DNA from: Acidicapsa dinghuensis
Lineage (GTDB): Bacteria; Acidobacteriota; Terriglobia; Terriglobales; Acidobacteriaceae
Length of the DNA: 64,000 nucleotides
Direction of reading: 5' to 3'
Assembly (NCBI RefSeq): GCF_025685685.1
Contig: NZ_JAGSYH010000008.1
Location: forward strand, 1 to 64,000
The notes under the pieces are model-generated. The model did no database searches and was not told the origin of the DNA. It saw nothing but the letters and a program-made list of their open reading frames with translations. Of this stretch, positions 27,663 to 42,820 are shown one piece after another. Both the position numbers and the translations under genes were made by a program. Position 1 is the stretch's first letter, and every line of letters starts with the position of its first letter.

Positions 27663-27910
27663 TAAGGCTCTGAAGCGTTCAGCCGTTCGAAAATGGGAAA
27701 CATTTGCACTAAAAATTGAGCACCATGGGCGCAGACATAAAAAATCTGTAAATCGCCAACTTTTCTCTGGACTCCAGCCAAAAAATCAGGCACAGTAACA
27801 TTACTAAAGACGTCCCAACAGTACCCATCGATCAGTTACCAAGGTGCAGATCTTGGGAGAGTTCCGAGGCTCTGCGGACGGGCTGTAGTATCGGTTTCGA
27901 ATGCGTTGTT

Positions 27911-28153
27911 ACCAGTTGTGACAGTTGCCTCCCCCGCTTCTGTCACGTTCGACCACAACCGCGCAACCTGTAAGTTTGTTCTCCCAGCTTCGGTATTCAC
28001 TGGCAGGACGAGAACGTTTAACACCGAAGTTTCCCTCCCCCGGACTCTTCCTCAACCTTTATCGGTTAACCAAGTTTTCGATTCCCTCCCCCAGGCTGCA
28101 CGCAGAAGATCAAGCCCGATGCGTGCAGCCGGCCTTTTCTCCAGCCCTCCCCC
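27911..28153 (+). ncRNA. probable RNA element with four CCTCCCCC boxes
   Basis: CCTCCCCC occurs at 27928, 28034, 28085 and 28146 (approximate to one base). The first lies in the 15-base loop of a perfect 7-base hairpin, GTGACAG (27918-27924) and CTGTCAC (27940-27946). A second hairpin pairs CTTCGGT (27988-27994) with ACCGAAG (28023-28029). An intrinsic terminator follows at 28094-28138, and the fourth box lies beyond it. The boxes resemble anti-Shine-Dalgarno loops of known small RNAs. It could be a terminated small RNA, a leader controlling ccmE, or both. The 5' end is not defined. Confidence 0.45.
28094..28138 (+). terminator. intrinsic terminator upstream of ccmE
   Basis: GGCTGCACGC (28094-28103) pairs perfectly with GCGTGCAGCC (28121-28130), 17-base loop, followed by GGCC and TTTT (28135-28138). 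It lies about 110 bases before the ccmE ATG, where no protein gene ends nearby, so it must end a small transcript or act as an attenuator. Confidence 0.6.
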
Positions 28154-28250
28154 AAAGTTTGACCCTCATTCCTTCCGCCTCGTAAAGTAGTAAGTGACGA
28201 TCCACTCAAGAGAAAGATTTTTGTGGGTCAGTCGCAGGCGGTATCTTTTA

Positions 28251-28724
28251 ATGAAATTCTCTGCGCAGCAAATTCGCATCGCGATCGCCGCTGTCATCAT
28301 TCTTGGAACTATCGGCTACCTTGCCTATTCCGGCGCCGCGGCCAATCAAAGCTATTACGTTACGGTTGCCGAGATGCACAACATGGGCGACAAGGCTTAC
28401 AAGACCCACCTGCGCGTCGAAGGATTCGTAAAGCCTGACACCATTCAGCAAAGCGGGACCCACGTCACCTTTGTGCTGACTGAATTTGAGAGCCACAATC
28501 CCAAGGCAACGCCAAATCCGCATTTTGTGGTTGTGAATTACCAGGGCTCCGAGCCCCCGCCGGACACCTTCAAAGGCGATGCGCAGGCCCTGGCCATTGG
28601 CACCTTCGGTAAAGACGGTGTCTTCCATGCCACGCAGCTTCAGGCTAAGTGCGCTTCCAAATACGCGCCCGCGCAGCCTAACGGCGTGCAACCAGCGAAA
28701 CCTGCAGCCAATAAGACCGCATAG
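28251..28724 (+). CDS. ccmE: cytochrome c maturation haem chaperone CcmE, Cys type
   Basis: Periplasmic haem chaperone that receives haem from CcmC and passes it to apocytochromes c. One N-terminal span (about 9-27) precedes an OB-fold domain (about 34-130). The haem-attachment residue is Cys, in C134-A-S-K-Y138, instead of the His of the common HxxxY form; CxxxY variants are known in other bacteria and archaea. The C-terminal tail is Ala/Pro-rich. ATG at 28251 gives the usual length (157 residues); an upstream in-frame GTG at 28194 would add 19 charged residues before the span and is less likely. The other ccm genes lie 2 kb downstream. Confidence 0.85.
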   Translation: MKFSAQQIRIAIAAVIILGTIGYLAYSGAAANQSYYVTVAEMHNMGDKAYKTHLRVEGFVKPDTIQQSGTHVTFVLTEFESHNPKATPNPHFVVVNYQGSEPPPDTFKGDAQALAIGTFGKDGVFHATQLQAKCASKYAPAQPNGVQPAKPAANKTA

Positions 28725-28787: not shown

Positions 28788-30887
28788 TCACCAGACCTTG
28801 CACTCATGCTCATGCACCATCGGCTGGCCAGCCTTGCACCCGAATGCCTTCTGAAACTGCGGCATGTTACTGACCACCCCATTGATACGCGCAAAGCCAG
28901 GCGAGTGCGGATCGGTCAATGCATTCACGCGAAGATCTTCCGGCCTCACGTTCTCGCAAGCCCACTGCCCCATACCGATAAAGAATCGCTGATCCGGCGT
29001 GAATCCATCGCGTGGCGTCAATGTTTCCGTTGCGGTTTGCATCTTCCACGCAATGTAGGCCAGTAGTGTACCGCCAAGATCAGCGACATCTTCGCCGCTT
29101 GTGAGCTTGGAATTGATGTGAATGTCATCCACGATCACATACTGCGCATACTGATCGCGAACGCAGTTGATGCGGTCCTCAAACCCCTTGGCATCGGCTG
29201 GAGTCCACCAATCCTTGAGATTGCCCTTCGCATCGAATTGACGTCCCTCATCATCGAAGGCGTGCGTCAGCTCATGGCCAATCGTCGCTCCGGTGTTGCC
29301 GTAGTTGGGGGCATCATCCATCTTCGGATCGTAAAGCGGCGGCTGTAGCACGCCCGCTGGAAAGTTGATGTCGTTCATCTGCGGATTAAAGTAAGCGTTC
29401 ACTGTGGGCGGAGACATGCCCCACTCATTCAGATCCACCGGCTTACCCAGCTTGTTCCAGCGCCGCGCTGTTTCAAACTGCATCGCCCGCAGTGTGTCGC
29501 CAAAGTAGTCGTCGCTTTTGACCGTCAATGCCGAGTAGTCTCGCCAACGGTCGGGATAGCCGATTTTATTGCGGATCGCGTGCAGCTTGCGTAGTGCTTC
29601 CTGCTTCGTCTCTGGACTCATCCAGTCGAGCCCTTCGATCTCCTGCTTCATAGCAGTCTCAATCTGCTCGGTCATGAGCCGGGTCTTGGCTTTCATGTCG
29701 GCAGAAAAGGTGAGGCGCACAAACTCCTGCCCCAGCGCTTCGCCCATGAAGCGATCCACCTGCCTCGTGCACTGTTTCCATCGCGGCGGCTCAACCGGAA
29801 TACCGCGAAGCGTCTTCGAATAAAAATCAAACTGCGCATCGCGGAATGGCGTCGCCAGATACGGAGCAGCAGCGCTGGCAAGATGAAAGCGCAGATATGC
29901 TTTCAGATCGGCCAGGGACTCCGCGGTAAGTTCCGCATTGACTTCTTTGATGAACTCCGGCTGCGACACGTTCAACGTCTTCAGTCCCGGCGCTCCCTGT
30001 TCGGCGAAATACGCTTCCCAATGAATCGCAGGAGCCAGCGTTTGGAGCTCAGAAACCGTCATCTTGTGATAGATCTTGTGCGGGTCGCGCCGCTCCACGC
30101 GGGTCAACTGCGCCTTCGCCAGCGCGGTTTCGATCCGGACAATCGATGCAGCATCAGTCTTCGCCTGCTCCTGCGGTTCGCCGGCCATCGTCAGAATCTG
30201 CGCAACATAGTCCTGGTACTGCTTCAATAGCGTCTGGCTCTTGGCATCGGTCTTGACGTAGTAGTCGCGATCGGGCAGTCCCAGGCCACCAGCACCTAGC
30301 TCGACGATCACCAGGCTGGCGTCCATGGCGTCCTGCCCTGTGCCCGCGTTGAAAAATGTCCCGCCAGAAAACTCGTGGTGGATCGAGGCAATTGCCTGCA
30401 GCAGCGCCTCGCGCGAATTGAGCGCATCGACCTGCCGCAACATTGCCTGCAAAGGCTCGCTGCCTCGCTGATCGATAGCGGCCGTATCCATGCACGCGCC
30501 AAAGTAGTCGCCGATCTTCTGTTGTACCGGGGTCCGGTTCGTCGCCAGCGAATCGTTCTGCAGGATGCCCCAAAGGAATTCCTGATTTTCGTTGGCCAGC
30601 TTGCCATAGACGCTCCAACTGGCCTCGTCCGAGGGAATCGGATTGTTCTTCTGCCAACCTCCACAAACAAACTTGTAGAAGTCCTGGCACGGATCGACGC
30701 TGCGATCCATGCTCGTCAGATCCAGCGACGGTGAATACGGCATCGACGTCAGCGGATGAGCAGCTTCTGCGGGCGATACAGATTGTGCGGTCAAACCTTG
30801 CGGTACTACGGTCGCCACTGCCATCACCACAAACAGCACTACCGGAAAAGACCAGTTCTTTCGCATCCTATTTCTCCGTATCTGCAT
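28788..30887 (-). CDS. M13 family (neprilysin/PepO-type) zinc metallopeptidase
   Basis: A 699-residue exported endopeptidase with a signal peptide ending near LTAQS (about residue 36). The N-terminal domain starts DPCQDFYKFVCGGWQKNNPIP. The zinc site HELTH lies near residue 535, after GNTGATIG. The third ligand Glu is in SGEDVADLGG. The substrate Arg region is in the C-terminal NALTDPHSP segment, and the protein ends with the family's C-x-x-W (CKVW). It cleaves peptides in the periplasm. It lies on the strand opposite to the ccm genes and splits ccmE from ccmA, so it is probably unrelated to haem handling. Confidence 0.95.
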   Translation of the reverse strand: MQIRRNRMRKNWSFPVVLFVVMAVATVVPQGLTAQSVSPAEAAHPLTSMPYSPSLDLTSMDRSVDPCQDFYKFVCGGWQKNNPIPSDEASWSVYGKLANENQEFLWGILQNDSLATNRTPVQQKIGDYFGACMDTAAIDQRGSEPLQAMLRQVDALNSREALLQAIASIHHEFSGGTFFNAGTGQDAMDASLVIVELGAGGLGLPDRDYYVKTDAKSQTLLKQYQDYVAQILTMAGEPQEQAKTDAASIVRIETALAKAQLTRVERRDPHKIYHKMTVSELQTLAPAIHWEAYFAEQGAPGLKTLNVSQPEFIKEVNAELTAESLADLKAYLRFHLASAAAPYLATPFRDAQFDFYSKTLRGIPVEPPRWKQCTRQVDRFMGEALGQEFVRLTFSADMKAKTRLMTEQIETAMKQEIEGLDWMSPETKQEALRKLHAIRNKIGYPDRWRDYSALTVKSDDYFGDTLRAMQFETARRWNKLGKPVDLNEWGMSPPTVNAYFNPQMNDINFPAGVLQPPLYDPKMDDAPNYGNTGATIGHELTHAFDDEGRQFDAKGNLKDWWTPADAKGFEDRINCVRDQYAQYVIVDDIHINSKLTSGEDVADLGGTLLAYIAWKMQTATETLTPRDGFTPDQRFFIGMGQWACENVRPEDLRVNALTDPHSPGFARINGVVSNMPQFQKAFGCKAGQPMVHEHECKVW

Positions 30888-30965
30888 GCTAATCGATCAA
30901 GTCGCAATTATTCCGTCTGGAATCAACGACGCAATCAGGCTCACAACACCCACTACAATCGTTAT

Positions 30966-31685
30966 GTGCTCCCTGTAACGGAAACTGGCATAAATAAGCC
31001 AGAGCAATCTCCGAATAACCTGACGCCATTGATCGCACACCTTGACTCGGTTTCGCGGCTTTTCGGCAGCTTTGCCGCTTTGCGTCAGGTAAGCGTTGAT
31101 CTCGCACGCGGCAAATGCTATGTTCTGCTCGGGGAAAACGGAGCCGGAAAATCGACATTGCTGCGTATTCTCGCTGGACTTCTCCGCCCATCGGTTGGCG
31201 AGGTTACGGTCTTTGAAGACAGCGAACCACGCCAGGCACGTCATCGCATTGGCTACATGAGCCACGCGCCGATGCTGTACGACGAGCTTACCGGGCGGGA
31301 AAACCTGCAATACTACCGCGACCTGTATACCCGCCCAGAACGCTCAGGCTGCCTCAATCCTGACGATGCGCTCCGCCAAGTTGGCCTTGATCCGGCGCTC
31401 ACTCGAACCGTCGGCCAATACTCGCAAGGCATGCGGCAGCGCACCTCGCTGGCCCGCGTGCTCATCAGTCAGCCCGAACTGCTGTTGCTCGATGAGCCGT
31501 TCTCCAATATGGATGTAGAAAGTGTCGATCAGATGGTGCGCCTGCTGGCGACCTTCCGCTCCGACAGCCGCACCATCGTCATCACAACCCACCAGCGCGA
31601 ACTGGCAGCGCCCATCGCCGACTTCATCATCACGCTCAAAGCCGGGCGCCTGCATTCGCTCGATGCCGGGAGGCCGTCGCTATGA
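30966..31685 (+). CDS. ccmA: haem exporter ATPase CcmA
   Basis: The ATPase of the CcmABCDE haem chaperone release complex. The 239-residue protein has Walker A GENGAGKST, the SQGMRQRTSLARVL signature and Walker B LLLLDEPFSNMD, and the short CcmA length. The start is unclear: GTG at 30966 has no ribosome binding site; CTG at 31020 and TTG at 31029 are alternatives. Its stop overlaps the ybaK start as ATGA, so translation is coupled. It is divergent from the M13 peptidase. Confidence 0.88.
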   Translation: MLPVTETGINKPEQSPNNLTPLIAHLDSVSRLFGSFAALRQVSVDLARGKCYVLLGENGAGKSTLLRILAGLLRPSVGEVTVFEDSEPRQARHRIGYMSHAPMLYDELTGRENLQYYRDLYTRPERSGCLNPDDALRQVGLDPALTRTVGQYSQGMRQRTSLARVLISQPELLLLDEPFSNMDVESVDQMVRLLATFRSDSRTIVITTHQRELAAPIADFIITLKAGRLHSLDAGRPSL

Positions 31686-32203
31686 GCTCTGCGACACACA
31701 AAACCAATGGCGCGCGCTTTCTCGACTCGCTCGGAATCTCCTACTCCATCCGGGAATACGAGGTAGACCTCGAAGATCTGGCCGCTACCACGGTGGCCCG
31801 CAAGATCGGCATGCCGGCCGAACAGGTTTTCAAGACACTCCTCACCACCGACGGATCAGGCAATCACTTCTTCGCCGTAGTTCCTGGCGATGCTGAGCTC
31901 GACTTCAAAAAACTGGCTCGTGCCGCTGGTGTCCGCAAAGCGGAGATGGTTTCGCTCAAAGACGTACAACCGCTCACGGGATATATCCGTGGCGGTGTCA
32001 CTGTCTTTGGCGCAAAGAAAGCCTTCCCCGTTTTTGCCGATGAAACCATCGAACTCTTCGACATCATCTCGGTCTCGGCCGGTCAGCGCGGCTCACAGTT
32101 GCTCTTGTCTCCAGCGGACTATCTCCGCGCTGCCGAGGCCACCATTGCCGACCTGGCCAAAGACATCCGCCCCGAAGAGCGGAGCAAGGCCAACGCTGGA
32201 TGA
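31682..32203 (+). CDS. YbaK/EbsC-type aminoacyl-tRNA deacylase
   Basis: A 173-residue cytosolic protein of the YbaK family, which hydrolyses mischarged tRNA such as Cys-tRNA(Pro). Family features include KTLLTTD with the conserved Lys, the FFAVVPGDAELDFKKLARAAG stretch, and the GYIRGGVTVFGAKKAFPVFAD loop. It overlaps ccmA by 4 bases (ATGA) at its start and ccmB by 4 bases at its end, so it is embedded in the ccm operon. A link between cysteine mischarging control and cytochrome c production is possible but unproven. Confidence 0.9.
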   Translation: MSSATHKTNGARFLDSLGISYSIREYEVDLEDLAATTVARKIGMPAEQVFKTLLTTDGSGNHFFAVVPGDAELDFKKLARAAGVRKAEMVSLKDVQPLTGYIRGGVTVFGAKKAFPVFADETIELFDIISVSAGQRGSQLLLSPADYLRAAEATIADLAKDIRPEERSKANAG

Positions 32204-32922
32204 CGACCGAACCTTCCAATATGGCATCTCAGTCTTCCGCGCCTGCATGGACCAGCCTGGTCCTGACCCATCTGCGCAAAGACCTGCGCATCGAGTGGCG
32301 TTCCCGCGACGCCATTAATGCCATGCTTTTCTTTGCGCTGCTGGTTGTCGTGCTCTTCAGCCTGGCCTTTGATCCAAGCGCCGATACATCGCGCGAGATC
32401 GCCTCCGGCGTGCTTTGTGTCGCTACGCTTTTCGCCAGCGTCTCAGCCTTGAACCAGGCGTGGGCCCGCGAGCTGCGCCACCAGGTGCTCGACGCCCTGA
32501 GGATGACGCCCGGCGGCGGAGCTGCCATGTTCTTCGCCAAAGTGCTGGCAAACTTTTTCTACGTCACCATCGTTCAGGCAGTCCTCGGCCCAGTCTTCTT
32601 TATCTTCTACAATCTTCGCCCCTTGGGCGATGCAAGCCTGCTGCTGCTGGTCGTGCCATTGGGAACGTGGGCGCTCGTGGTCAACGGAACATTTTTTGCC
32701 GCACTGTCCATCCGCAGCCGTAATCGTGAACTGCTGTTGCCGCTGATCCTCTTCCCCATCTTCCTGCCCGCGCTCCTCGCAATGGTCTTGTCCGTCAAGA
32801 CGATCCTCACCGGCGACGGAAGCGATCCCAGCTTTTTATGGATCAAGATGCTGGGCGGCTACGACATCATCTTCACCACTATCTGCCTGCTGCTTTTCGA
32901 TGTGGTGCTGCAGGCAGAGTAA
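32200..32922 (+). CDS. ccmB: haem exporter membrane protein CcmB
   Basis: A 240-residue inner-membrane protein with six hydrophobic segments, the permease partner of CcmA. The family pattern is visible in LRKDLRIEWRSRDAINAMLFFALLVV, then VLDALRMTPGGGAAMFFAKVLANF. It overlaps ybaK by 4 bases. Next comes ccmC, 81 bases downstream. Confidence 0.9.
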   Translation: MTTEPSNMASQSSAPAWTSLVLTHLRKDLRIEWRSRDAINAMLFFALLVVVLFSLAFDPSADTSREIASGVLCVATLFASVSALNQAWARELRHQVLDALRMTPGGGAAMFFAKVLANFFYVTIVQAVLGPVFFIFYNLRPLGDASLLLLVVPLGTWALVVNGTFFAALSIRSRNRELLLPLILFPIFLPALLAMVLSVKTILTGDGSDPSFLWIKMLGGYDIIFTTICLLLFDVVLQAE

Positions 32923-33003
32923 AACGCACCAAATCAAGAGCCGTCCGTCACGCACCCTCCAAAACCCAGCGCACTACACTAAGGAGAGAAGGTCGAATCC
33001 TGG

Positions 33004-33711
33004 ATGAAAAAATTTGCCATTTTCCTTAGCGTTGCCGGAGTCATGGCTCTCATGGCGTGGGGTTTCTATCAAGCGATGTATGTGGCGCCCACAGAGTCCA
33101 CCATGGGCGATATTCAACGAATCTTTTACTACCACGTTCCTAACGCGATCCTCTGCTATCTCTTCTTCACCATCAATTTCGTTGCTTCGTTTTTCGTTCT
33201 CATCTGGCATCGCAATCGGCCAACCATGGCTCTCAAAGCTGACGCCTGGGCGCTTTCCGGAGCGGAAGTGGGCGTCGTATTCTGCTCCGTTGTGCTGGTG
33301 ACTGGCCCCATCTGGGGACGTCCGGTCTGGGGCATCTGGTGGACCTGGGATGCGCGCCTGACCTCAACCCTTGTCCTCTGGCTTATCTATGTCAGCTATC
33401 TCCTGATCCGCAGATTCGCCGCCGGCGGCGGCATGCAAGCCATCGCAGCCGTTCTTGCCGTCTTCGGCGCGGTCGATATGCCCATCAACTACCTCGCCAA
33501 TCGAATCTGGCGCACCCAGCATCCTTCGCCGGTCTTTTTTGGCGGAGAAGATTCGGGCATTAAAGACCCGCACATGCTCGCCGCATTCGGCTGGAATGTG
33601 CTCGCCTGGGCGGCATGGGGTATAGCCGTCCTATGCTTCCGGGTGTACGTACAACGGCGTCAACAGATCCTGGATCAATCCGAGGCTGAAGCGGCCCTGA
33701 ACAATTTTTGA
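33004..33711 (+). CDS. ccmC: haem-handling protein CcmC
   Basis: A 235-residue inner-membrane protein with six hydrophobic segments that loads haem onto CcmE. The periplasmic Trp-rich haem motif is GIWWTWDARLTS, and the two haem-ligand histidines are likely those of YYHVPN and RTQHPSP. The ribosome binding site AAGGAGAGAAGG lies about 15 bases upstream. It is followed by the short ccmD-like gene. Confidence 0.93.
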   Translation: MKKFAIFLSVAGVMALMAWGFYQAMYVAPTESTMGDIQRIFYYHVPNAILCYLFFTINFVASFFVLIWHRNRPTMALKADAWALSGAEVGVVFCSVVLVTGPIWGRPVWGIWWTWDARLTSTLVLWLIYVSYLLIRRFAAGGGMQAIAAVLAVFGAVDMPINYLANRIWRTQHPSPVFFGGEDSGIKDPHMLAAFGWNVLAWAAWGIAVLCFRVYVQRRQQILDQSEAEAALNNF

Positions 33712-33819
33712 TGGAGATGTTTAGGAAATTGGTACCTTATCTCTTTTGAAAGCCGTTATATACGATTGCACTATTCAAGCAGTTTATGTAATCAATGAAG
33801 CAAAATACGGAGAACAATC

Positions 33820-33927
33820 ATGAATCATAATTTCCTTGTCGCCGCCTACTGCTGCACCTGGGCCATCCATCTGGGCTACCTCGCGTGGATCGCCGCGAAA
33901 TGGCAACGGCAAAAGACAAAACTTTAG
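33820..33927 (+). CDS. CcmD-like single-span microprotein
   Basis: An unlisted 35-codon gene directly downstream of ccmC. It starts MNHNFLVAAYCC, has one hydrophobic segment (about 5-26), and ends with a basic tail KWQRQKTKL. GGAGA lies 6 bases before the ATG. Length, topology, the A-Y in the span start and the place after ccmC all fit CcmD, which holds the CcmABC complex together and releases CcmE. CcmD is too short and variable for a firm call from sequence alone. Confidence 0.65.
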   Translation: MNHNFLVAAYCCTWAIHLGYLAWIAAKWQRQKTKL

Positions 33928-34099
33928 CGCGGAAGCGGGCACCCATTACCACACCGAACCGCATAACACCTAAGTGGGTACTCGGGTAACACCGGTGAAG
34001 ATTACTCAGCCGTCTTCGTGGGATTTAAGAATTTTCTAATCAGACCGATGATCGGTATGTGGAGAGGTTCTGCGGAACGCCACAGAGGAGATGCACCCC

Positions 34100-34198
34100 A
34101 TGCACGATGTACTGATCGCCCTCGCCTTTATCGGAATGGTTATCGCTCCCGCCGTTGTTGCCGCCAAGTCGGGCAGCTCTGAAACCAAGTTCGACTAA
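34100..34198 (+). CDS. MHD-type membrane microprotein 1
   Basis: A 32-residue peptide starting MHDVLIALAF, with one hydrophobic span (about 4-22, central Pro in IAPAVV) and a polar tail KSGSSETKFD. It is a diverged relative of the genes at 35022 and 35846. GAGGAG sits 9 bases before the ATG; an in-frame ATG at 34091 is too close to that site. No family is recognised. It lies between the ccm genes and a cupin gene. Confidence 0.6.
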   Translation: MHDVLIALAFIGMVIAPAVVAAKSGSSETKFD

Positions 34199-34403
34199 GC
34201 TTGGCCCTTCCGCTGGAAAGATCGCGCGAACAGCTATAGGAAGAACGCTGATTCTTTGCCAGTTACCATAGATTAGAGCTACGGCCACTCCTTATTCCCC
34301 TCTGTCCCAGCCTGCGCATCTCCACCTCCAGACAATCGTCCATCGACATCCCAAAACCAGCGATGCGATGATTCAGATGATCAATGGTGCCTTCTGGAGG
34401 CTT

Positions 34404-34841
34404 ATGCCGGATATTCCCCCGCAACATCAGCCCAATGCTCAACATCAGTTCGATCTGGAGCAACTGGCCGCATCGCTGCCGGAAACCTCTCAGACGATGT
34501 TGCTCGACATTCGCCTGACCGACGAGCCCGCTGCCAGCTCGCGCATCTTCCGCGTTTACCGCCCAGTGCCACGCCACTATCACAAGGGCTGCGATGAATA
34601 CCTTCTCGTCGTGAAGGGGCGCGCCAGATTTGTTGTTGGCGATGAGCTGGAGGTGGAACTCCGGCCAGGTCAGCTACAGTTTTTCCGGCGAAATGTCGTC
34701 CATGGATTTCTGGAGATTCTAGAGCACCCATTTGTTATTTTGTCCGTTGATACGCCACGCCGCGAGCCCGATGACGTTCATTTCGTCGACCCCACCCAAC
34801 GTACTGTAGATTCCTTTATCCGGACGCTTCCCGGTTACTGA
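34404..34841 (+). CDS. cupin-fold protein
   Basis: A 145-residue single-domain cupin. The metal-binding pattern is visible: H-Y-H in PRHYHKGCDEYLLVVKG (motif 1, with a following Glu) and H in NVVHGF (motif 2). The region RARFVVGDELEVELRPGQL joins them. Function could be enzymatic or sensory. ATG at 34404 follows GGAGG at close spacing; in-frame ATG codons at 34368 and 34377 have no ribosome binding site. It sits between two MHD microprotein genes. Confidence 0.75.
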   Translation: MPDIPPQHQPNAQHQFDLEQLAASLPETSQTMLLDIRLTDEPAASSRIFRVYRPVPRHYHKGCDEYLLVVKGRARFVVGDELEVELRPGQLQFFRRNVVHGFLEILEHPFVILSVDTPRREPDDVHFVDPTQRTVDSFIRTLPGY

Positions 34842-35021
34842 AATTTTCCAGTAACGCGTTTTTGCATAAATGATCTGCCCCTTTCGGGGGATGTTTCCGT
34901 AACACTGTCCTGATTACGTACAGGATGGAAGTGCTATTTAAGAATCATCAAAACAAGGTCATTCTTGATTCATCAGCAAGGGCAAGTCGGAAACAGTGAA
35001 CGCCCTTCAGGAGTGACCTCA

Positions 35022-35123
35022 ATGCATGATTTTCTTATCGGTCTTTCTTTCGTCCTCATGGTAATCAGCCCTGCCATTGTCGCTGCGTTCTCCTCGGGCA
35101 CATCGGAAAGCAACGCAGAGTAA
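35022..35123 (+). CDS. MHD-type membrane microprotein 2
   Basis: A 33-residue peptide: MHDFLIGLSF, a span (about 4-23) with central S-P, then a tail FSSGTSESNAE ending acidic. CAGGAG lies 9 bases before the ATG. It is nearly identical in protein to the gene at 35846 (30 of 33 residues) although 12 of 33 codons differ, nine of them silently. This shows selection on the peptide. The function is unknown; a one-span subunit or regulator of a membrane complex is likely. Confidence 0.8.
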   Translation: MHDFLIGLSFVLMVISPAIVAAFSSGTSESNAE

Positions 35124-35297
35124 TCCCTCCGTTTGAGAGCGGGCCGTGTCGAATCCCGGCCTGCTACCTCCTTAACTTCCCGTCGCCTTTCTCCTCTCAT
35201 TCACGACTTTCTCTTTTCATCTGGGTTCCTTTTGCAAAGGAGTGCCGGCAGAATCTCCGAGGCCGCGCTCACAGAACTCAAACCAAGGAGAAAGCTG

Positions 35298-35621
35298 ATG
35301 CCTAGAAAGCTTTTGCTGCTGGCAGCTCTGGTGCTTCCTGTAGCGTTGACTGCGTGTTCACATCCGCAGCACATGTATTACCCTCCCCCACCACCACCGG
35401 CATGGTCTGAGATCGCCCGCCACGGATTCCATGACGGCGTGCAGGCTGCCCGCAGGGATATCTCCCATGGCTTGCCTCCGGACGTGAATCGCCATCCGAG
35501 ATTCCGCAACCCTCCGGTACCGCCTCCGGCGTTTGAAGACTACAGGCATGGCTTCCGCGAAGGTTATCAGCAAACCTTCCAGCATGGCTCTGGTCCTGCA
35601 CCGGGCCCGGGATATTACTGA
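35298..35621 (+). CDS. His/Pro-rich lipoprotein
   Basis: A 107-residue protein with a lipoprotein signal peptide and lipobox LTAC (Cys at residue 20). The mature part is short and rich in His, Pro and Arg: PPPPPPAW, two related segments (IARHGFHDGVQAARRDI and YRHGFREGYQQTF), and a GSGPAPGPGYY tail. AAGGAG lies 8 bases before the ATG. It may be a periplasmic metal- or polyanion-binding protein, but nothing beyond composition supports that. It sits between MHD microproteins 2 and 3. Confidence 0.75.
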   Translation: MPRKLLLLAALVLPVALTACSHPQHMYYPPPPPPAWSEIARHGFHDGVQAARRDISHGLPPDVNRHPRFRNPPVPPPAFEDYRHGFREGYQQTFQHGSGPAPGPGYY

Positions 35622-35635
35622 GAATCGAATCAACA

Positions 35636-35678
35636 AATGGCCACTGCGCTACATTCTGCCGCCGTGGCCATTCTTTTT
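35636..35678 (+). terminator. intrinsic terminator after the lipoprotein gene
   Basis: AATGGCCAC (35636-35644) pairs with GTGGCCATT (35664-35672), 19-base loop, followed by CTTTTT (35673-35678). It lies 15 bases past the stop codon and isolates the third MHD microprotein on its own transcript. Confidence 0.75.
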
Positions 35679-35845
35679 CCGCAACTCTATCGGTTTGCCC
35701 CCACTAAGGTGCCACCTGAGCATAGCTCCTACAGTGTCCACGAAAGGTGACAAGTGGTATTCCGAAATACGGTTACCTGCGCGATTCTTGTGTTGTGGCA
35801 AGGCGGTAACAACCAATCAGCCAAGCCCAGCAGGAGAATCCCCCA

Positions 35846-35947
35846 ATGCATGATCTTCTTATCGGCCTTACCTTCGTACTCATGGTGATCAGCCCAGCCA
35901 TTGTCGCAGCGTTCTCTTCGGGCACGTCAGAAAACAACGCCGAGTAA
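35846..35947 (+). CDS. MHD-type membrane microprotein 3
   Basis: A 33-residue peptide: MHDLLIGLTF, a span with central S-P, and the tail FSSGTSENNAE. It differs from the gene at 35022 by F/L, S/T and S/N only. GGAGA lies 9 bases before the ATG. It has its own upstream region after the terminator at 35636. The next gene is aroF. Confidence 0.8.
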   Translation: MHDLLIGLTFVLMVISPAIVAAFSSGTSENNAE

Positions 35948-36077
35948 TCCTGCCGCAGGCAGCATGGCTGCTTGCCTCACCAGTTCCCTTGACCACAGTT
36001 GCAGTACAATCTGCGACACCCCGACATTGCCCTACCCCATCCGAGACAGTACACTCAACTTTTGAGGGCATGGGCAA

Positions 36078-37133
36078 ATGCTGGTGGTAATGAATGCGCA
36101 AGCCACGCCGGAGCAAGTCAAGGCGGTTTGCGAACACATTGAACAACTCGGGTTTAGAGCCCATCCGCTTCCCGGCGCACAGCGCACCGCCATCGGCATC
36201 ACCGGCAATCAGGGCGAGGTGGATCGAGGCAATCTCGAATTTCTTCCTGGCGTCGCTGACGTCATCGCCGTTTCCAAGCCATACAAGTTAGCCAGCCGAG
36301 ATGTGAAACAGGACGACACCGTCATTCGCTTCCCCGGCACCGATGCCGTTATTGGCGGCGGACATCACATTGCCATCGTTGCCGGACCATGCTCCATCGA
36401 AACACGCGAACAGGCATTTGCCATCGCCGACAAAGTGGCGGCTGCCGGAGCACAGTTCTTTCGTGGCGGCGCATTCAAGCCACGCACTTCACCCTACGCA
36501 TTTCAGGGCCTCGGTCTTGAGGGTCTGCAGATCATGGCCGAAATCCGCGAACGGACAGGCATGCGTATCATCACCGAAGCCATCGACGCCGAAACGCTGG
36601 AGATGGTCGTCGAGTACGCCGACGTCATCCAGATAGGCGCGCGCAATATGCAGAACTTTTCCCTGCTCAAAAAAGCGGGAAAGACTCGCAAGCCCGTGCT
36701 GGTCAAACGCGGCATGTCCGCAACGCTCGACGAATTCCTGATGGCTGCCGAATACGTCATGAGCGAGGGCAATTACCAGGTCATCCTGTGTGAGCGCGGC
36801 ATTCGCACCTTCGCCGATCACACACGCAACACTCTCGATCTCAGCATTGTTCCGGCAGTGCAGCGTCTGAGCCATCTGCCCATTCTTGTTGATCCGAGCC
36901 ATGGTACCGGCAAACGGAACAAGGTCGTGCCGCTGGCACGCGCGGCCGTTGCTGTTGGTGCTGACGGCATCATGGTCGAGGTACATCACGAACCGGAAAA
37001 AGCTCTCTCCGACGGACCGCAATCCATCTACCCGGAACAGTTCGAAACCATGATGAATGAGCTCGAACAGATCGCAAAGGTACTGCACCGTGAGGTACCA
37101 CGCGGAATCCATGCAGGGACCGCAACCACGTGA
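36078..37133 (+). CDS. aroF: 3-deoxy-7-phosphoheptulonate synthase
   Basis: First enzyme of the shikimate pathway: joins phosphoenolpyruvate and erythrose-4-phosphate. The 351-residue protein has an N-terminal ferredoxin-like regulatory domain (about 1-70, [17 protein letters not shown]) and a KDO8P-like barrel. Barrel motifs include [43 protein letters not shown] and [10 protein letters not shown]. This is the type I-beta form found in Thermotoga and Bacillus relatives. The stop overlaps a GTG that starts the next gene. Confidence 0.96.
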
Positions 37134-38362
37134 GAACACCAACTCCGCATCCAGAGCGGGAATACACTTCCTCACTCCACAAACAGAGTGGCAAAATGGT
37201 CTTCGCCGCTGCACTGGCAGGACTATTCCTCATTGGCTGCCGGTCGCATGACTTTCCACAGTACCCCGCCAACTACCGCGAATTTGCCTATGTAACCAAT
37301 GGCGGAAGCGATACGGTATCTGTCTTCGATGTGGTAAATATCCGCCTCGATCGTCAAATTCAGGTCGGGCAAGATCCAACCGGCATCACCGCGAACCCGA
37401 AGCGCAATGAAGTTTACGTGGTCAACTCTGGCAACGGGTCATCGAACGGGTCTGTCTCGGTCATCGACACGGAAAAGAATGCTGTTGTCGCTACCATCCC
37501 AGTGCATCGCAAACCGTACTTCCTCGATGTCTCTCCCGACGGCCATCTCGCGTATGTTGCAAATTCCGGATCGAATTCGGTTTCGGTGATCGATCTCGAT
37601 TCCCGGCGCGAGATCGAGGTTGTCGGTGTCGGCGAAGCACCCGGTTTGGTCCGTGTCACGCCTGACGATCGATCCCTGATCGTAACGAACCGGCTCGGAA
37701 ACAGCATCAGTATTCTCGAAACAACAGCGTCTGCTCCGCCCCAGCTTCGTAAAGTCATCCCCGGTTGCCCCGGCGCCACAGACGTTGCGATTCTGCCGGA
37801 CTCAAGCAAGGCATTTGTCGCCTGTTCAAGCGGACATCAGATCATGGCCATCGCTCTTGCGCAGGCTGCAGACAGCAATCACCCATCCCGGCCAGACCAA
37901 CTCGAAGCGATGCTCGACGTGGGCCGGTCGCCAGTCCACCTTGCCCTTAAGCCAGATGGAGGCGAACTTTTCGTCTCCAACTTCGACTCCAACTCAATCT
38001 CCGAGATTGTCACGAGTACAGACGATGTCGGCGGTAGTTACCTGATGGGTTCCAATCCAGTTCGCGGACTCGTTACTCCCGATAACGCGCTTTTGTTTGA
38101 AAGCGACTTCAGTTCTCAAGACATATCGCTCTATTCCATCGACGATGGAAAACGCATCGCACCTGCCACCGGAGGCTTTTCTATCCATGTTGGCGACGGT
38201 CCCGACGCACTCGCGTTTTCATCCACGGGCAATCTTCTCTTCGCTGTCGACGCACGATCCGGCGACGTTGCGGTGATTCGTACAAGCTCGCAGTCTCTAT
38301 TCACTCTGCTGCCCACGGGGCGGCAGCCGAATGCGATCGCGCTGAAATCGTTCCGGCTGTAG
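37130..38362 (+). CDS. YVTN beta-propeller lipoprotein
   Basis: A 410-residue protein with a lipobox LIGC (Cys near residue 37) and a seven-bladed propeller of YVTN/YncE-type repeats. Each repeat contains a strand such as [24 protein letters not shown] or [16 protein letters not shown]. Such proteins are mostly outer-membrane or periplasmic scaffolds of unknown ligand. GTG at 37130 overlaps the aroF stop (GTGA), giving probable co-translation; a downstream ATG at 37196 (MVFAAAL) would still retain the signal peptide. Confidence 0.82.
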
Positions 38363-38727
38363 TAAAGAAATGATTCTCAGAGGCCAATACTTCCTTATCG
38401 AACATCACAAAGGTTGAACCTTCAACAGTGGTGACTGCTATGATTGCGGCAGAACCCCTACTCTCAAAGATGTATTTACTTCACCCCAATCAGTTGCAAG
38501 AATCGCCAATATCGATTGTTTTCAGATATGCCATGCTTCGAGACGAAGTTAATTTAGCCAATCTACGCAGATGCAAATCGAAACCCCGGAATGTAAACTA
38601 CAACCTTCAATTTGCTTCACTTCCCCGAGCTAAAGCTCTTATCCCCAGAGATGTGCAAGCGTCACAGTTTCAGGAAGACAAAGTCGTGAATTAGAAATCG
38701 GACCTTGCCGTCGCGGAGAGCAGTTAT
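38363..38727. other. intergenic region upstream of the winged-helix pair
   Basis: A 365-base stretch, AT-richer than its surroundings, that must hold the promoter of the first winged-helix gene. An 88-codon frame crosses it (38428-38694), but it has no ribosome binding site and no recognisable features. No repeats or hairpins stood out. Confidence 0.5.
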
Positions 38728-39045
38728 ATGTCCAACAGTTTCACCTATGACGAGCTACAAGAGCATGGGTTCACGCTCCTGACGAATCATGCTTTGGTTC
38801 TTGTCCTCATTGCTCGCATTCCCGATATTCGCATGCGCGAAATTGCGTCTCATATAGGCATCACGGAACGAGCCGTTCAGAGGATCATCGACGATCTCAC
38901 CACGAACGGTTATGTCGTCATTACCAAAGATGGCCGTCGCAACCGTTATGAGATCAATCTCGAGCATCCCATTCAACATCCGCTGATAACGCACCTCAAC
39001 ATCGGCGATCTCGTTCGCTTTCTAGGCCCTCAGTTCCAAACTTGA
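38728..39045 (+). CDS. winged-helix transcriptional regulator A
   Basis: A 105-residue single-domain DNA-binding protein of MarR-like type. The helix-turn-helix is IRMREIASHIGITERAVQRIIDDL (about 31-54), and the wing is GYVVITKDGRRNRYEI. A 30-residue C-terminal tail completes it. The gene at 39309 is a close paralogue. No sensor domain is visible, so it may respond through dimerisation or a partner. A GGAG-like element upstream of the ATG supports the start. Confidence 0.82.
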   Translation: MSNSFTYDELQEHGFTLLTNHALVLVLIARIPDIRMREIASHIGITERAVQRIIDDLTTNGYVVITKDGRRNRYEINLEHPIQHPLITHLNIGDLVRFLGPQFQT

Positions 39046-39308
39046 GCATTCTCTGCAATTGTTGGATCTGACGTAGTTTGCACAGCATCTCACTTCCTAG
39101 TCGTACTGACGTTTTTTTAGATAGACCATTTAACGATCAAACCATTTGTTATCAATTGGGTATCCTGCGCTACAGAGCTTTGATTCGCAGTTCATGACCA
39201 TGAGACAAGAAAAGCCGGCAATGACAATTCAAGACACGAAAACGCTACGTGCGGCGCAAAACGCAGTCTGCTGAACAGAAACACGAGATGATTTCAAAGG
39301 AAGAAGGA

Positions 39309-39647
39309 ATGACAGACGCAACTTATTCAAAGCCTCAGGCAGATCATCGCTTTGGCTTCTTTACGAATCACGCCTTGGCTCTTATCACTATTGCGAATGA
39401 CCCCAAAATCCGCATGCGGGAGATTGCCGAAAAAATCGGCATCACCGAACGCGCCGTTCAACGCATTATCGACGACTTGAGCACCGCTGGATACATCTCG
39501 GTGGTAAAAGATGGCCGCCGAAACTGCTATGAGATCCGTCGCGACAGCAGAGTCAGCGATCCTCTTAGAACAGAGATGAAACTTGGCGGATTGCTCGAAG
39601 CGGTTATTCCCCGGATGACACCGATCGCGGCAGCGGAGCTAGGTTAA
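39309..39647 (+). CDS. winged-helix transcriptional regulator B
   Basis: A 112-residue paralogue of the gene at 38728. The shared core runs from TNHALAL through IRMREIAEKIGITERAVQRIIDDLSTAGY to KDGRRNCYEI; the N- and C-terminal ends differ. ATG at 39309 follows AAGGAAGAAGG; an upstream GTG at 39249 would add 20 charged residues and is less likely. The 263-base gap to the first copy suggests independent promoters. Confidence 0.82.
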   Translation: MTDATYSKPQADHRFGFFTNHALALITIANDPKIRMREIAEKIGITERAVQRIIDDLSTAGYISVVKDGRRNCYEIRRDSRVSDPLRTEMKLGGLLEAVIPRMTPIAAAELG

Positions 39648-39684
39648 ACCCTTCTCAAACGAGGTAACATGACCTTCCAACGAT

Positions 39685-39705
39685 CAGGTGGATTTAATCC
39701 ACCTG
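39685..39705. terminator. compact stem-loop between convergent genes
   Basis: CAGGTGGAT (39685-39693) and ATCCACCTG (39697-39705) form a perfect 9-base stem with a 3-base TTA loop, between the second winged-helix gene and the convergent BrkB-type gene. It lacks a T-run. Confidence 0.45.
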
Positions 39706-39727
39706 CGATCTTGGGTGGTCTTTCCCG

Positions 39728-40723
39728 TTATTTTCCGCTGGTTCGCGAAGCAGTTTGCAGACCGTGACGCATCGCACTGAATTTTGCGCCGGCAAAGAGA
39801 AGCAGACCTGACACGTACCCCCACAGCAGCAATCCGACCGATACGTAAAACGGTCCATAGTACGTGCGTAAATTAAGGTGAGGAAGTACTGCAACGAAGC
39901 CATACTTTGCAGCTATCCAAAGGATCCCCGTTACGATGGAAACACGCAATACAGGGCGCGCCGGAAGCTTGCGGTTCGGCAATATCCAATAGATCGAAAA
40001 GAACAGTAGAATGCCGGCAATCGATGTCGAAATTGCAAGCCATGATTCTGAAAGAAGACGAGCGGCCCAGTTATCTGCATGCCCCAATAAGAGGACTTTG
40101 ATCACCGTTCTCTCACCTGCGTTGAGCGTGATACTCAACATTCCCAGCGTGACCATCCAAAGCGCAAGCCCCAATGCGATCAGCTGGTTCATGATGTAGT
40201 TGCGGCTTTTCGCTACACCCCACGAACGGTTCAACGCGACCTCAAGCGGCAGAAAAATTCCTGTACAAGAAATCAAGATCAGCAGCAGCGAAATCACGCT
40301 TGCGCCTCGTTGTGGCGCAACTGCGGCAAGATGGGCTGCGATCCAATCCTGGTTGGATGGAAAGAGGTACTTGATGAATTCGCCGATCACGTCCGCCATC
40401 GGCTGCGAATGAAAAACACTATGCGCAATCGTATAGAGAAGAACGATGAATGGAATAAATGAGAGAATCGCGTTTGCAGCAACACTGAAGGCAAACGTGT
40501 GCACTTCGCTGTCGAGCAGATAGCGCAACAACAACTTGCCATCGCGCTGCCACTGGAAACCATAAATGGGGAGAGGAGGCTCCTCAGTGGTCTGTGCCGC
40601 TTCCTTGCTACCCGGCTGCGGGGAGACAGACGACTCTATAACCTCGCTGACGCTTGCTGGTCCGCCAACGGCCGGTACTGTTTCGGTTGATTTCTCTTCA
40701 GATGTTTGCGGGGGTAGTGGCAC
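39728..40723 (-). CDS. YihY/BrkB family inner-membrane protein
   Basis: A 331-residue protein with an acidic, Pro/Ser-rich N-terminus (about 1-50), then five to six hydrophobic segments. The family pattern shows at AFSVAANAILSFIPFIVLLYTIA and at the C-terminal FYVSVGLLLWGYVSGLLLFAGAKF. The family was once annotated as RNase BN; that activity belongs to another protein. Its role is not settled, possibly transport or envelope stress. It is monocistronic and convergent with the regulator pair. Confidence 0.87.
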   Translation of the reverse strand: MPLPPQTSEEKSTETVPAVGGPASVSEVIESSVSPQPGSKEAAQTTEEPPLPIYGFQWQRDGKLLLRYLLDSEVHTFAFSVAANAILSFIPFIVLLYTIAHSVFHSQPMADVIGEFIKYLFPSNQDWIAAHLAAVAPQRGASVISLLLILISCTGIFLPLEVALNRSWGVAKSRNYIMNQLIALGLALWMVTLGMLSITLNAGERTVIKVLLLGHADNWAARLLSESWLAISTSIAGILLFFSIYWILPNRKLPARPVLRVSIVTGILWIAAKYGFVAVLPHLNLRTYYGPFYVSVGLLLWGYVSGLLLFAGAKFSAMRHGLQTASRTSGK

Positions 40724-41169
40724 GTTTTATTCGCTATGGTGCTCAACCTGATGCTATCAGAGTGCGTATTTCTCATTAATCGCCAGCCCCGGTAACGTCC
40801 GGATCGTTCAACCTCTATACGATTTTTTCTTGCATTTTTGACAGAATCCTGCCATAACCAAGGGACAACCTCTGCATTATCGTCAGCAGTTCAAGACTGT
40901 TCCGGGTGGCAGTCTTCTGCTCCAGTTAAACCCTGGTTCGACTTACTCAGATAACCGCAACAGCTGGATATCGGACGCGGTCTTCATGACGGCACATCCT
41001 TTGTGTCTGCTCTCGAAGCCTGATAGAGCTACCGGTATCGGCACAACACAGTCCGCCAGCTTCCGCAGAATCGAAAGGCGGCCATCGCACTACTCATACA
41101 TTGCCTTACTTTGGAATCACCTTTATCGGCAACCATCATAGGTTCTCTTAATCAACAAGGAGAGTAGCA
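40724..41169. other. 446-base upstream region of the cold-shock gene
   Basis: Non-coding. It carries the divergent promoters of the BrkB-type gene and the cold-shock gene. Long leaders are typical of cold-inducible csp genes, but no cold-box could be identified by eye. The ribosome binding site AAGGAG lies just before the GTG start at 41170. Confidence 0.5.
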
Positions 41170-41376
41170 GTGAAGGAAAAGGGTATTGTGAAGTGGTTTA
41201 ACGGAGCTAAGGGCTATGGCTTTATTCAGCGATCCACAGGCGAGGACGTCTTTGTCCACTTCTCAGCGATTCAGTCCGACGGCTACCGCTCGCTGAACGA
41301 AGGTGAGTCGGTTGAGTTCGTACTACAGCAGGGCCCCAAAGGTCTGAATGCTATCGAGGTGACCCGTCCCTCCTGA
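41170..41376 (+). CDS. CspA-family cold-shock protein
   Basis: A 68-residue single-stranded nucleic acid-binding OB fold. RNP1 is KGYGFIQ and RNP2 is VFVHFSAI. The protein starts with GTG after AAGGAG (spacing 6). It likely acts as an RNA chaperone in cold or stationary phase. It is monocistronic. Confidence 0.95.
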
Positions 41377-41463
41377 CCTGTGTAGCTTCTGACTCGTCCC
41401 TTGTGATCTGATCCGTCAATTCAGTTGCGTCTTGCCTGTCCGTTAACGGGAGACTCTTTATCC

Positions 41464-41488
41464 GCACCCCGGCGTCCGAACGGGGTGC
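41464..41488 (+). terminator. stem-loop after the cold-shock gene
   Basis: GCACCCCG (41464-41471) pairs with CGGGGTGC (41481-41488), 9-base loop, 87 bases past the stop and ahead of the convergent queG. A self-complementary CCGTTAACGG lies just upstream. No T-run follows. Confidence 0.4.
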
Positions 41489-41536
41489 GCAGATCAAGAC
41501 GACCGACCAAACCCAACGTGCGACGGGCTCTTTAGG

Positions 41537-42820
41537 CTACGCCTGTTCTTCCGAGATGCGTGGCGTTTTGAGGCGATCAAGCGCCCACCGGATAGTAGAC
41601 TGTAATCCCTCGCGCGCTTCGTGTACACGCGTCTCCGCTATGCCCGGCGCATCAACACCTATCCCGGTTTCGGTCTCACCCGCATCGCGCTCGCATTCCT
41701 GCATCCAGCGTTCAAGGATGGGAATGAATTCTCTCCGTCCGCTGTTGCCCATAGCCACCGCCAGGTTACGTCGAAATCCTGCATATCCCGCTCTTCGCAC
41801 TGGCGAACCGTTAAACATCTGTTCGAAGGCCCTGAGATCCATCGCCGCGAGTCTCTCGATAAACGGATTGATCAGCTCACGCCGCGCCGTCATCCCTTCA
41901 TCCACCACCACCGGCGCTTTACGGTTCCAGGGACACACATCCTGGCAGATATCGCATCCGAAGATCTGCCGTCCCATCCCTGGCATCAATTCTTCCGGCA
42001 ACGCCCCGCGATGCTCAATCGTGAGATACGAAATACAGCGGCGCGCATCCATCCGGTACGGCTCATACAACGCATCTGTCGGGCACGCTTCAATACAACG
42101 CCTGCAACTGCCGCATCTGTCCGGAACGACAAAGCGAGCCTCGCGTTCCGGCACTTCCAGCGACAGCACCAATACTGCAAGAAAATTCCACGAGCCCAGC
42201 TTCGGATGGATCAGGCATGTATTCTTTCCCGTCCATCCCAGCCCCGCTGCCTTCGCCACCGAGCGTTCGACCACGGGCCCCGTGTCAACGTAAGCTCTCG
42301 CTTCAAACTCCCCGTATTCCGCATGCAGCGCCTCTTCCAGCTTGCGCAACCGTTTCAACAACACCTTGTGGTAATCGCTCGGCCGCAAATCGCCTGCGCC
42401 GTCTTTCCGGCCCGTCCAGGCATAACGTGCGATCCATCCGGTTCCTTCGGGCGCAGAAGCCACGGACAATGGGGCATCCGCGTTATATCCGGCAGCACAA
42501 ACCACCACCGAGCGCACCCAGGGAAACGGCACATCCACCCGGCCGCGCACCAATGTCCCAGCCTCATTCTGGCGCGCCAGATAGGCCATGGAACCCGCAT
42601 GCCCCGCGTCTATAAACTCTGCAAATCGTCCAGCATCCCGTTCCGCTTCCGGATATGGCAGGCTGACTACCCCAGCCTCGGTAAATCCCACCTCCAGCGC
42701 AAGTGCGCGAATCCGCTCCCGATCCGGTACCCCCTCGATGCCGCCAGATCTTGCCTCGGGCTGCGTATTAACAACAGTGATACCCACTGTCGACTCAAAG
42801 TTGGAACCACCGGTAGGCAT
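41537..42820 (-). CDS. queG: epoxyqueuosine reductase
   Basis: Reduces epoxyqueuosine to queuosine in tRNA, the last step of queuosine synthesis, using a cobalamin and two 4Fe-4S clusters. The cluster motifs are CGSCRRCIEACP and CDICQDVCP, with the third and fourth ligands spread around ARRCISY and GCDICQ. The N-terminal catalytic domain includes YVDTGPVVERSVAKAAGLGWTGKNT. ATG at 42820 gives 427 residues. The frame stays open to 43063, but that stretch overlaps the STAS gene on the other strand and has no QueG homology; GTG at 42787 is another candidate start. Confidence 0.92.
   Translation of the reverse strand: MPTGGSNFESTVGITVVNTQPEARSGGIEGVPDRERIRALALEVGFTEAGVVSLPYPEAERDAGRFAEFIDAGHAGSMAYLARQNEAGTLVRGRVDVPFPWVRSVVVCAAGYNADAPLSVASAPEGTGWIARYAWTGRKDGAGDLRPSDYHKVLLKRLRKLEEALHAEYGEFEARAYVDTGPVVERSVAKAAGLGWTGKNTCLIHPKLGSWNFLAVLVLSLEVPEREARFVVPDRCGSCRRCIEACPTDALYEPYRMDARRCISYLTIEHRGALPEELMPGMGRQIFGCDICQDVCPWNRKAPVVVDEGMTARRELINPFIERLAAMDLRAFEQMFNGSPVRRAGYAGFRRNLAVAMGNSGRREFIPILERWMQECERDAGETETGIGVDAPGIAETRVHEAREGLQSTIRWALDRLKTPRISEEQA

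Follow-up and report, generated by a model that had tools for sequence, protein, structure and literature searches.

Results

Three paralogous microprotein genes

The window (the whole stretch of DNA analysed, 64,000 nucleotides) carries three small genes beside a cytochrome c maturation (ccm) cluster, each identified as an open reading frame, by profile match and by codon comparison, and each closely preceded by a GGAG motif:

34100-34198, + strand: microprotein copy 1, 32 residues, MHDVLIALAFIGMVIAPAVVAAKSGSSETKFD
34087-34090, + strand: GGAG of copy 1, 9 nt upstream of the ATG
35022-35123, + strand: microprotein copy 2, 33 residues
35010-35013, + strand: GGAG of copy 2, 8 nt upstream of the ATG
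35846-35947, + strand: microprotein copy 3, 33 residues
35833-35836, + strand: GGAG of copy 3, 9 nt upstream of the ATG

All three open reading frames were found where the initial annotation had placed three paralogous genes of 32-33 residues (34100, 35022 and 35846), and their hydrophobic parts align unambiguously. Genes this short may escape ordinary annotation. The GGAG had been put 9 bases upstream of each gene, a spacing that holds for copies 1 and 3 and is 8 bases in copy 2. In copy 1, an alternative in-frame ATG at 34091 would add three residues and overlaps the ribosome binding site. When the genome to which the window belongs (6.17 Mb) was searched with a profile of the three copies, all of them were recovered at E 1.5e-20 or better, and no further match was obtained below E 0.157.

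The three open reading frames are real paralogous genes under strong purifying selection. Copies 2 and 3 differ, as first described, at 12 of 33 codons. Changes fall on 10.0 of 23.7 synonymous sites and on 3.0 of 72.3 nonsynonymous ones, and the resulting dN/dS of 0.069 bears out the protein-level selection that had been proposed. Over the first 22 codons, synonymous sites are saturated between copy 1 and copies 2 and 3, with dN of 0.24 and 0.23, respectively. Among MHD-type members of the family, pN was lower than pS in 2773 of 2775 pairs (codons 2-22), which are not independent of one another, and the mean pS of family pairs is 0.72; synonymous sites look free. In each of three loci (L042, L044 and L046), tandem copies code for one and the same peptide and differ by silent changes only (3, 10 and 3, respectively), and 17 synonymous vs 2 nonsynonymous changes separate L055 from L059. 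The exception to this strong selection is the close pair L043 and L047, with a dN/dS of 0.72 on few changes. In 28 genus members of 32 residues, pN/pS is 0.29 in the helix and 0.55 in the tail, so the tail is less constrained. No internal stop occurs in any match at E <= 5.8e-4 (3-copy profile, genus genomes). The collected loci gave 95 distinct members (124 after later loci were added); the start is ATG in 94 of the 95, whose open reading frames were preselected for ATG, GTG or TTG, and GGAG, AGGA or GAGG lies within the last 20 bases before the start in 86.

Distribution and novelty of the family

Neither an absence of homologues beyond this strain nor broken frames lacking a silent excess, the two observations against which the initial annotation had set its claim, was found: homologues extend far outside the strain and frames are intact. 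All 15 genomes of the genus have matches (39 with the wider profile), and the 3-copy profile alone already gives relatives in all 15. With a cut-off of E <= 0.001, matches in the taxonomic family extend to 79 of 300 genomes and to 13 of 79 genera; the other 221 genomes have none at this level, which more divergent copies may escape. The class sample yielded matches in 52 of 399 genomes, of which 51 belong to the same taxonomic family and the remaining one, 80% complete, does not; the phylum sample yielded them in 29 of 396, 28 in the same family together with one weak outlier (E 3.4e-4). The named records with matches are Acidobacteria and Acidobacteriaceae, and they include Terracidiphilus MAGs and isolate AB60. 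The number of copies per genome ranges from one to eight. Phage or plasmid origin was rejected, since no relative was found in plasmids or phages and none of the 27 pattern matches in viral contigs was confirmed.

No significant family match was obtained with 100 members in Pfam (best E 0.0046), NCBIfam (0.017) or PHROGs (0.0093), the PDB gave no significant relative (best E 0.22), and scans of single members against Pfam and NCBIfam returned chance-level matches only. A description of the family was not among the papers listed in searches of the open-licence literature. Within the reach of these searches, the family is new; its kind, the single-helix membrane microprotein, is already known. 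The locus had been put forward as an undescribed system, and it is indeed undescribed in the family libraries searched, but 'system' is unproven, no partner having been found.

Anatomy of the peptide

Members are 32-35 residues long and follow one plan. The peptide begins with a charged M-H-D, continues for about 19 hydrophobic residues and ends in a tail that is short, variable and for the most part acidic. Among 100 aligned members, P17 is present in all, residue 10 is always aromatic (F, Y or W; F in 96), and D3, A18 and A21 are found in 94, 94 and 92, respectively. Residues 4-22 are uncharged in 96/100, the net charge of the tail is zero or negative in 86/100, and that of residues 1-3 never becomes positive, being -1 in 90 members and 0 in the other 10 (H not counted). 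The residue four after P17 is A in 92 members, S, T and L in 2 each, M and H in 1 each, and G in 0/100.

Conservation rises and falls along the peptide at 100 degrees per residue, with permutation p values of 0.0026 (residues 4-22), 0.0006 (3-22) and 0.015 (4-24), and of 0.010, 0.003 and 0.034 for the same ranges without P17; hence D3, F10, P17 and A21 share one helix face. Judged from this pattern, that side of the helix is probably a contact face. AlphaFold2 predicts one helix over residues 3-28, with pLDDT of about 95 over residues 1-20, which adds little because most hydrophobic peptides get predicted as helix.

A shared upstream promoter block

Putative control features lie before the three genes:

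34018-34052, + strand: promoter block of copy 1, GTGGGATTT-N20-GATGAT (upstream comparison, pattern search)
34931-34965, + strand: promoter block of copy 2, GTGCTATTT-N20-CATTCT (pattern search)
35754-35788, + strand: promoter block of copy 3, GTGGTATTC-N20-GATTCT (pattern search)
34058-34084, + strand: predicted hairpin directly before the ribosome binding site of copy 1 (fold; z of copy 1 only -0.6)

The upstream regions of 57 MHD-type members share, in order, TAcCAC-N4-GTGGGA, TAaCAC, GTGG(T/G)ATTT, an AT-rich stretch of 20 bases and a -10-like [CG]ATNNT. An exact pattern derived from these genes has four matches in the window's own genome (G000), three of them directly before the three copies. 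In whole genomes, the matches at a family gene out of all matches were 3/4 in G000, 3/3 in G011, 2/2 in G010, 2/6 in G003 and 0/1 in G007, and the reversed control gave 0 in each; a wider regulon was not seen in this exact-pattern search of five genomes. We also used a matrix of the last 38 bases of the shared upstream, trained on the 57 MHD-type members with their lower quartile as the threshold. It gave 46 distinct matches in 2.9 million strand positions, which comprise the window and loci mostly fetched for family genes; 28 were flagged at <=160 bases before a family start, 17 more were read by eye as preceding a family start, and one (L078) lies 194 bases before one. Of 124 members, 65 have the motif GTG[GC]NAT at -105 to -70 and 59 lack it there; the reverse strand gives 2, the stretch from -70 to -35 gives 0, that from -140 to -105 gives 18 and shuffles give 2.0 on average. 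Copies fetched last from other genera have it in 6/20. By these counts, the candidate promoter block is common to many members, not all. General consensus scans for promoters and terminators found no more than shuffles did (1 vs 2.1 and 3 vs 2.0). A wide regulon working through the upstream inverted repeat TAMCACNNNNGTGKKA was rejected on its match counts of 1, 3 and 0 in G000, G010 and G239, set against 6, 0 and 6 for the reversed control.

The energy test, and only that test, points to the predicted hairpin. The mean z of the folding energy is -1.37 in the 57 MHD-type members, where related sequences make the p value too small, and -0.13, no signal, in the other 38. A first, looser energy test was weak (z below -1 in 34.7% of 95 members vs 25.3% in a control stretch), and RNAalifold found no pairs and no consensus structure on alignment A5, which holds 41 of the 46 MHD-type upstreams remaining after a by-eye skip list, the final five omitted being ccmE-side copies.

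Genomic homes and neighbours

Two further features of the window belong to the surroundings of the family:

33820-33927, + strand: CcmD-like gene of 35 residues, a distinct small membrane protein and conserved neighbour (TIGR04391, E 8e-4, below its cut-off)
27794-27809, + strand: AGTAACATTACTAAAG, an element that precedes ccmE-side family genes in relatives; no family open reading frame follows it here

The commonest conserved home of the family is both ends of the ccm cluster. The gene order in many loci, obtained by tblastn with reference proteins, is M28 peptidase-[micro]-ccmE-ccmA-ybaK-ccmB-ccmC-ccmD-[micro]-DAHP synthase-propeller-YihY-QueG. A family gene lies 3' of ccmC/ccmD on the same strand in 31/31 ccmC-bearing loci (29 distinct, two duplicates) and between the M28 peptidase and ccmE in 12/13 loci having both; these loci were fetched via the family gene, so the counts show its position and not how frequent such copies are at ccm. 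In G011 the ccm cluster is broken up, and copies are retained with ccmE and with ccmC-ccmD (L043). By hand count, 19 of the 39 genus matches are within 10 kb of ccmB.

Other homes exist as well. Eight genus genomes (G002, G004, G006, G007, G008, G012, G013 and G014) have copies away from ccmB, nine have copies divergent from mutS2 (L049, L053-L061) with ccm elsewhere, and in other genera single copies lie between genes named by eye only (glyA, folC, clpC-like). On reading, the ccm clusters of G007 and G013 (L142 and L143) have no copy, and in G258, where the whole ccm-DAHP cluster is present, none was detected. CcmB is found in 276 of 300 genomes of the taxonomic family vs 79 of 300 with a microprotein match. 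The neighbourhood with ccm to which the initial annotation drew attention is thus real and old, but it is not obligatory, given the mutS2-side and scattered copies and the copy-free ccm clusters. On gene order, the ccm flanks look like the ancestral home of the family, which is no proof of function.

In the window, the M28 peptidase gene (25503-27659) is followed by ccmE (28245-28721), and the interval between them (27640-28260) holds no family open reading frame. What does survive there (27794-27809) is the AGTAAC-N-TTACT element, found in five relatives ahead of ccmE-side copies, and it is possibly a relic of a lost fourth copy. A 699-aa open reading frame on the reverse strand (28788-30887), M13-type peptidase-like by eye, separates ccmE from ccmA, unlike in many relatives, where these two genes are close together. 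Two related small winged-helix-like regulators (38728-39045 and 39249-39647) lie between the propeller gene and YihY, and relatives of both occupy the same place in several genus genomes. A partial match to the cspA thermoregulator model (41245-41319; 27.1 bits, gathering score 78) falls inside a cold-shock-like gene (41170-41376). A leader peptide of DAHP synthase was considered and rejected, as there is no run of aromatic codons.

The three genes are interleaved with a cupin gene (34368-34841) and a His/Pro-rich lipoprotein gene (35298-35621), both found as described. The unit that this arrangement had implied was not supported in the fetched loci, where neither gene is a constant neighbour by tblastn. 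The cupin lies beside microproteins in only three genomes, the window's included (L041, of which L094 is a duplicate, L044 and L063), and the lipoprotein only in the window. Relatives of the lipoprotein, which has no significant Pfam or NCBIfam match, occur at other places in 13 of 15 genus genomes, and its own genome has a second copy (G000:C13). On this evidence, the cupin and the lipoprotein are passengers.

Discussion

Our best explanation, to which we assign a probability of about 0.45, is that these are co-regulated genes for a single-pass membrane microprotein, which would work by docking on a larger partner in the membrane. We infer that each gene is translated into a single-pass inner-membrane microprotein of 32-35 residues, and that each copy forms a transcription unit of its own, under one common kind of promoter. 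With one promoter kind, we propose, dispersed and tandem copies would answer the same signal and copy number would set the dose. Through its D3-F10-P17-A21 face, the helix would dock on a larger protein or complex of the membrane, or else on itself, and the docked helix would modulate its partner, as AcrZ, KdpF or MgtS do. From position only, a first guess at the target would be cytochrome c maturation or a respiratory complex. This explanation is favoured by the purifying selection, the intact frames, the presence in 15/15 genus genomes, the mostly charge-free helix with one conserved face, the shared promoter and the proximity to ccmB. Against it, the link to ccm is not obligatory, 59 of 124 members are without the promoter motif at its place, and up to 8 copies per genome would be odd for a stoichiometric subunit.

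The main rival, which we regard as rather doubtful, is a type I toxin-like peptide of the Fst/Ldr style, present in multiple copies, silenced by antisense RNA and acting on the membrane of its own cell. The size, the single helix and the tandem as well as scattered stand-alone copies would suit such a peptide. Fst is described in PMC8309996 with an APXXXG motif whose proline and glycine are essential, with charged residues K2 and D3 that are likewise essential, and with a tail of acidic character; the M-H-D start, the [A/S/T/C]-P-XXX-A and the mostly acidic tail of the family can be compared with these. However, the PXXXG motif is absent, as P is found in 100/100 members and G four residues later in 0/100. 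No Fst/Ldr model is among the Pfam and NCBIfam matches listed for 100 members at E <= 1, which are all weak and concern other families; the PDB matches listed at E <= 10 include no toxin chain. An Rfam scan of 30000-42000 shows no antitoxin RNA, and inspection by eye revealed nothing in common 3' of the stop codons; with synonymous sites apparently free and nothing evidently shared beyond the stops, the only place left for a conserved antisense RNA would be upstream. That all 15 genus genomes retain the family vertically also argues against a toxin.

A dedicated accessory of cytochrome c maturation, namely a second CcmD-like subunit of the CcmABC-CcmE machinery, is in our judgement unlikely. 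Such a role would account for the family gene after ccmC/ccmD (31/31 loci) and between M28 and ccmE (12/13), and for the copies that the broken-up cluster of G011 keeps, but the counted loci were chosen for holding a family gene, and the synteny needs no shared function because an old shared location explains it. The genes also appear to have their own promoters, many genomes have copies away from ccm, copy-free ccm clusters exist, and a CcmD-like gene is already present in the cluster. A secreted peptide, with residues 1-22 serving as a signal peptide, cleavage behind A21 or A22 and the last 10 residues, the tail, as the product, is very improbable. The helix breaker P17 followed by V-A-A at 20-22 presumably fits a signal peptidase I site, and the tail retains some constraint in the genus (pN/pS 0.55). 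Nevertheless, the positive N-terminal region of a signal peptide is missing, with a charge of -1 (90/100) or 0 (10/100) in residues 1-3, and the conserved part is the hydrophobic stretch, on one face, and not the tail. We give next to no credence to the reading that the frames are conserved regulatory or RNA sequence, open by chance, since, although the 130 bases upstream are also conserved, the codon pattern of change brings it close to refutation and the ATG starts (94/95) and ribosome-binding-type motifs (86/95) oppose it.

Beyond the docking microprotein itself, the family might form a lineage-specific control layer in Acidobacteriaceae, a microprotein regulon, of a single family as far as observed, with one to eight tandem or scattered copies per genome and one promoter type, that would tune by dose a respiratory or cytochrome c membrane complex, perhaps under a dedicated activator reading TAcCAC...GTGGGAT; we offer this as a speculation that is on balance rather unlikely to hold. 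This is a strongly conserved protein family outside the searched libraries, from a phylum of abundant soil bacteria, and the shared promoter together with the conserved helix face makes its function directly testable. The family would also show that near-identical 33-codon genes can persist as long-lived, co-regulated copies beside a housekeeping operon.

Several known systems can be compared with the family. The photosystem subunits PsaM, PsbX and PsbZ are alike as small single-helix subunits, and the weak matches to them (PsaM E 1.2 in the PDB, PsbX 0.058, Ycf9 0.015 and PsbZ 0.039) are chance-level scores over a generic hydrophobic stretch. CcmD (TIGR04391), like those family members that follow ccmC/ccmD, is a small protein of the membrane encoded next to ccmC; its profile matches the neighbour at 33820, below the cut-off, but no family member in the Pfam and NCBIfam scans. 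Fst and Ldr share with the family a length of about 33 residues, one helix, an AP-like motif, D3 and the multi-copy habit, and by eye the family would seem to resemble Fst. The family differs from them in lacking a G four residues after the proline, and neither a library match nor an antisense RNA was found for it. AcrZ, KdpF, MgtS and MgrB are, like the microproteins described here, tiny single-helix membrane proteins, and the proline of the family presumably resembles that of AcrZ, judged by eye. No sequence relation of these four to the family was found in the PDB, Pfam or NCBIfam, one member matching MgtS at E 0.049, chance level. According to the part of PMC11539335 consulted, AcrZ and KdpF do their work inside large membrane complexes, and compared with the AcrZ-type regulators as reported in that part, the family stands apart by its multi-copy state with one promoter type.
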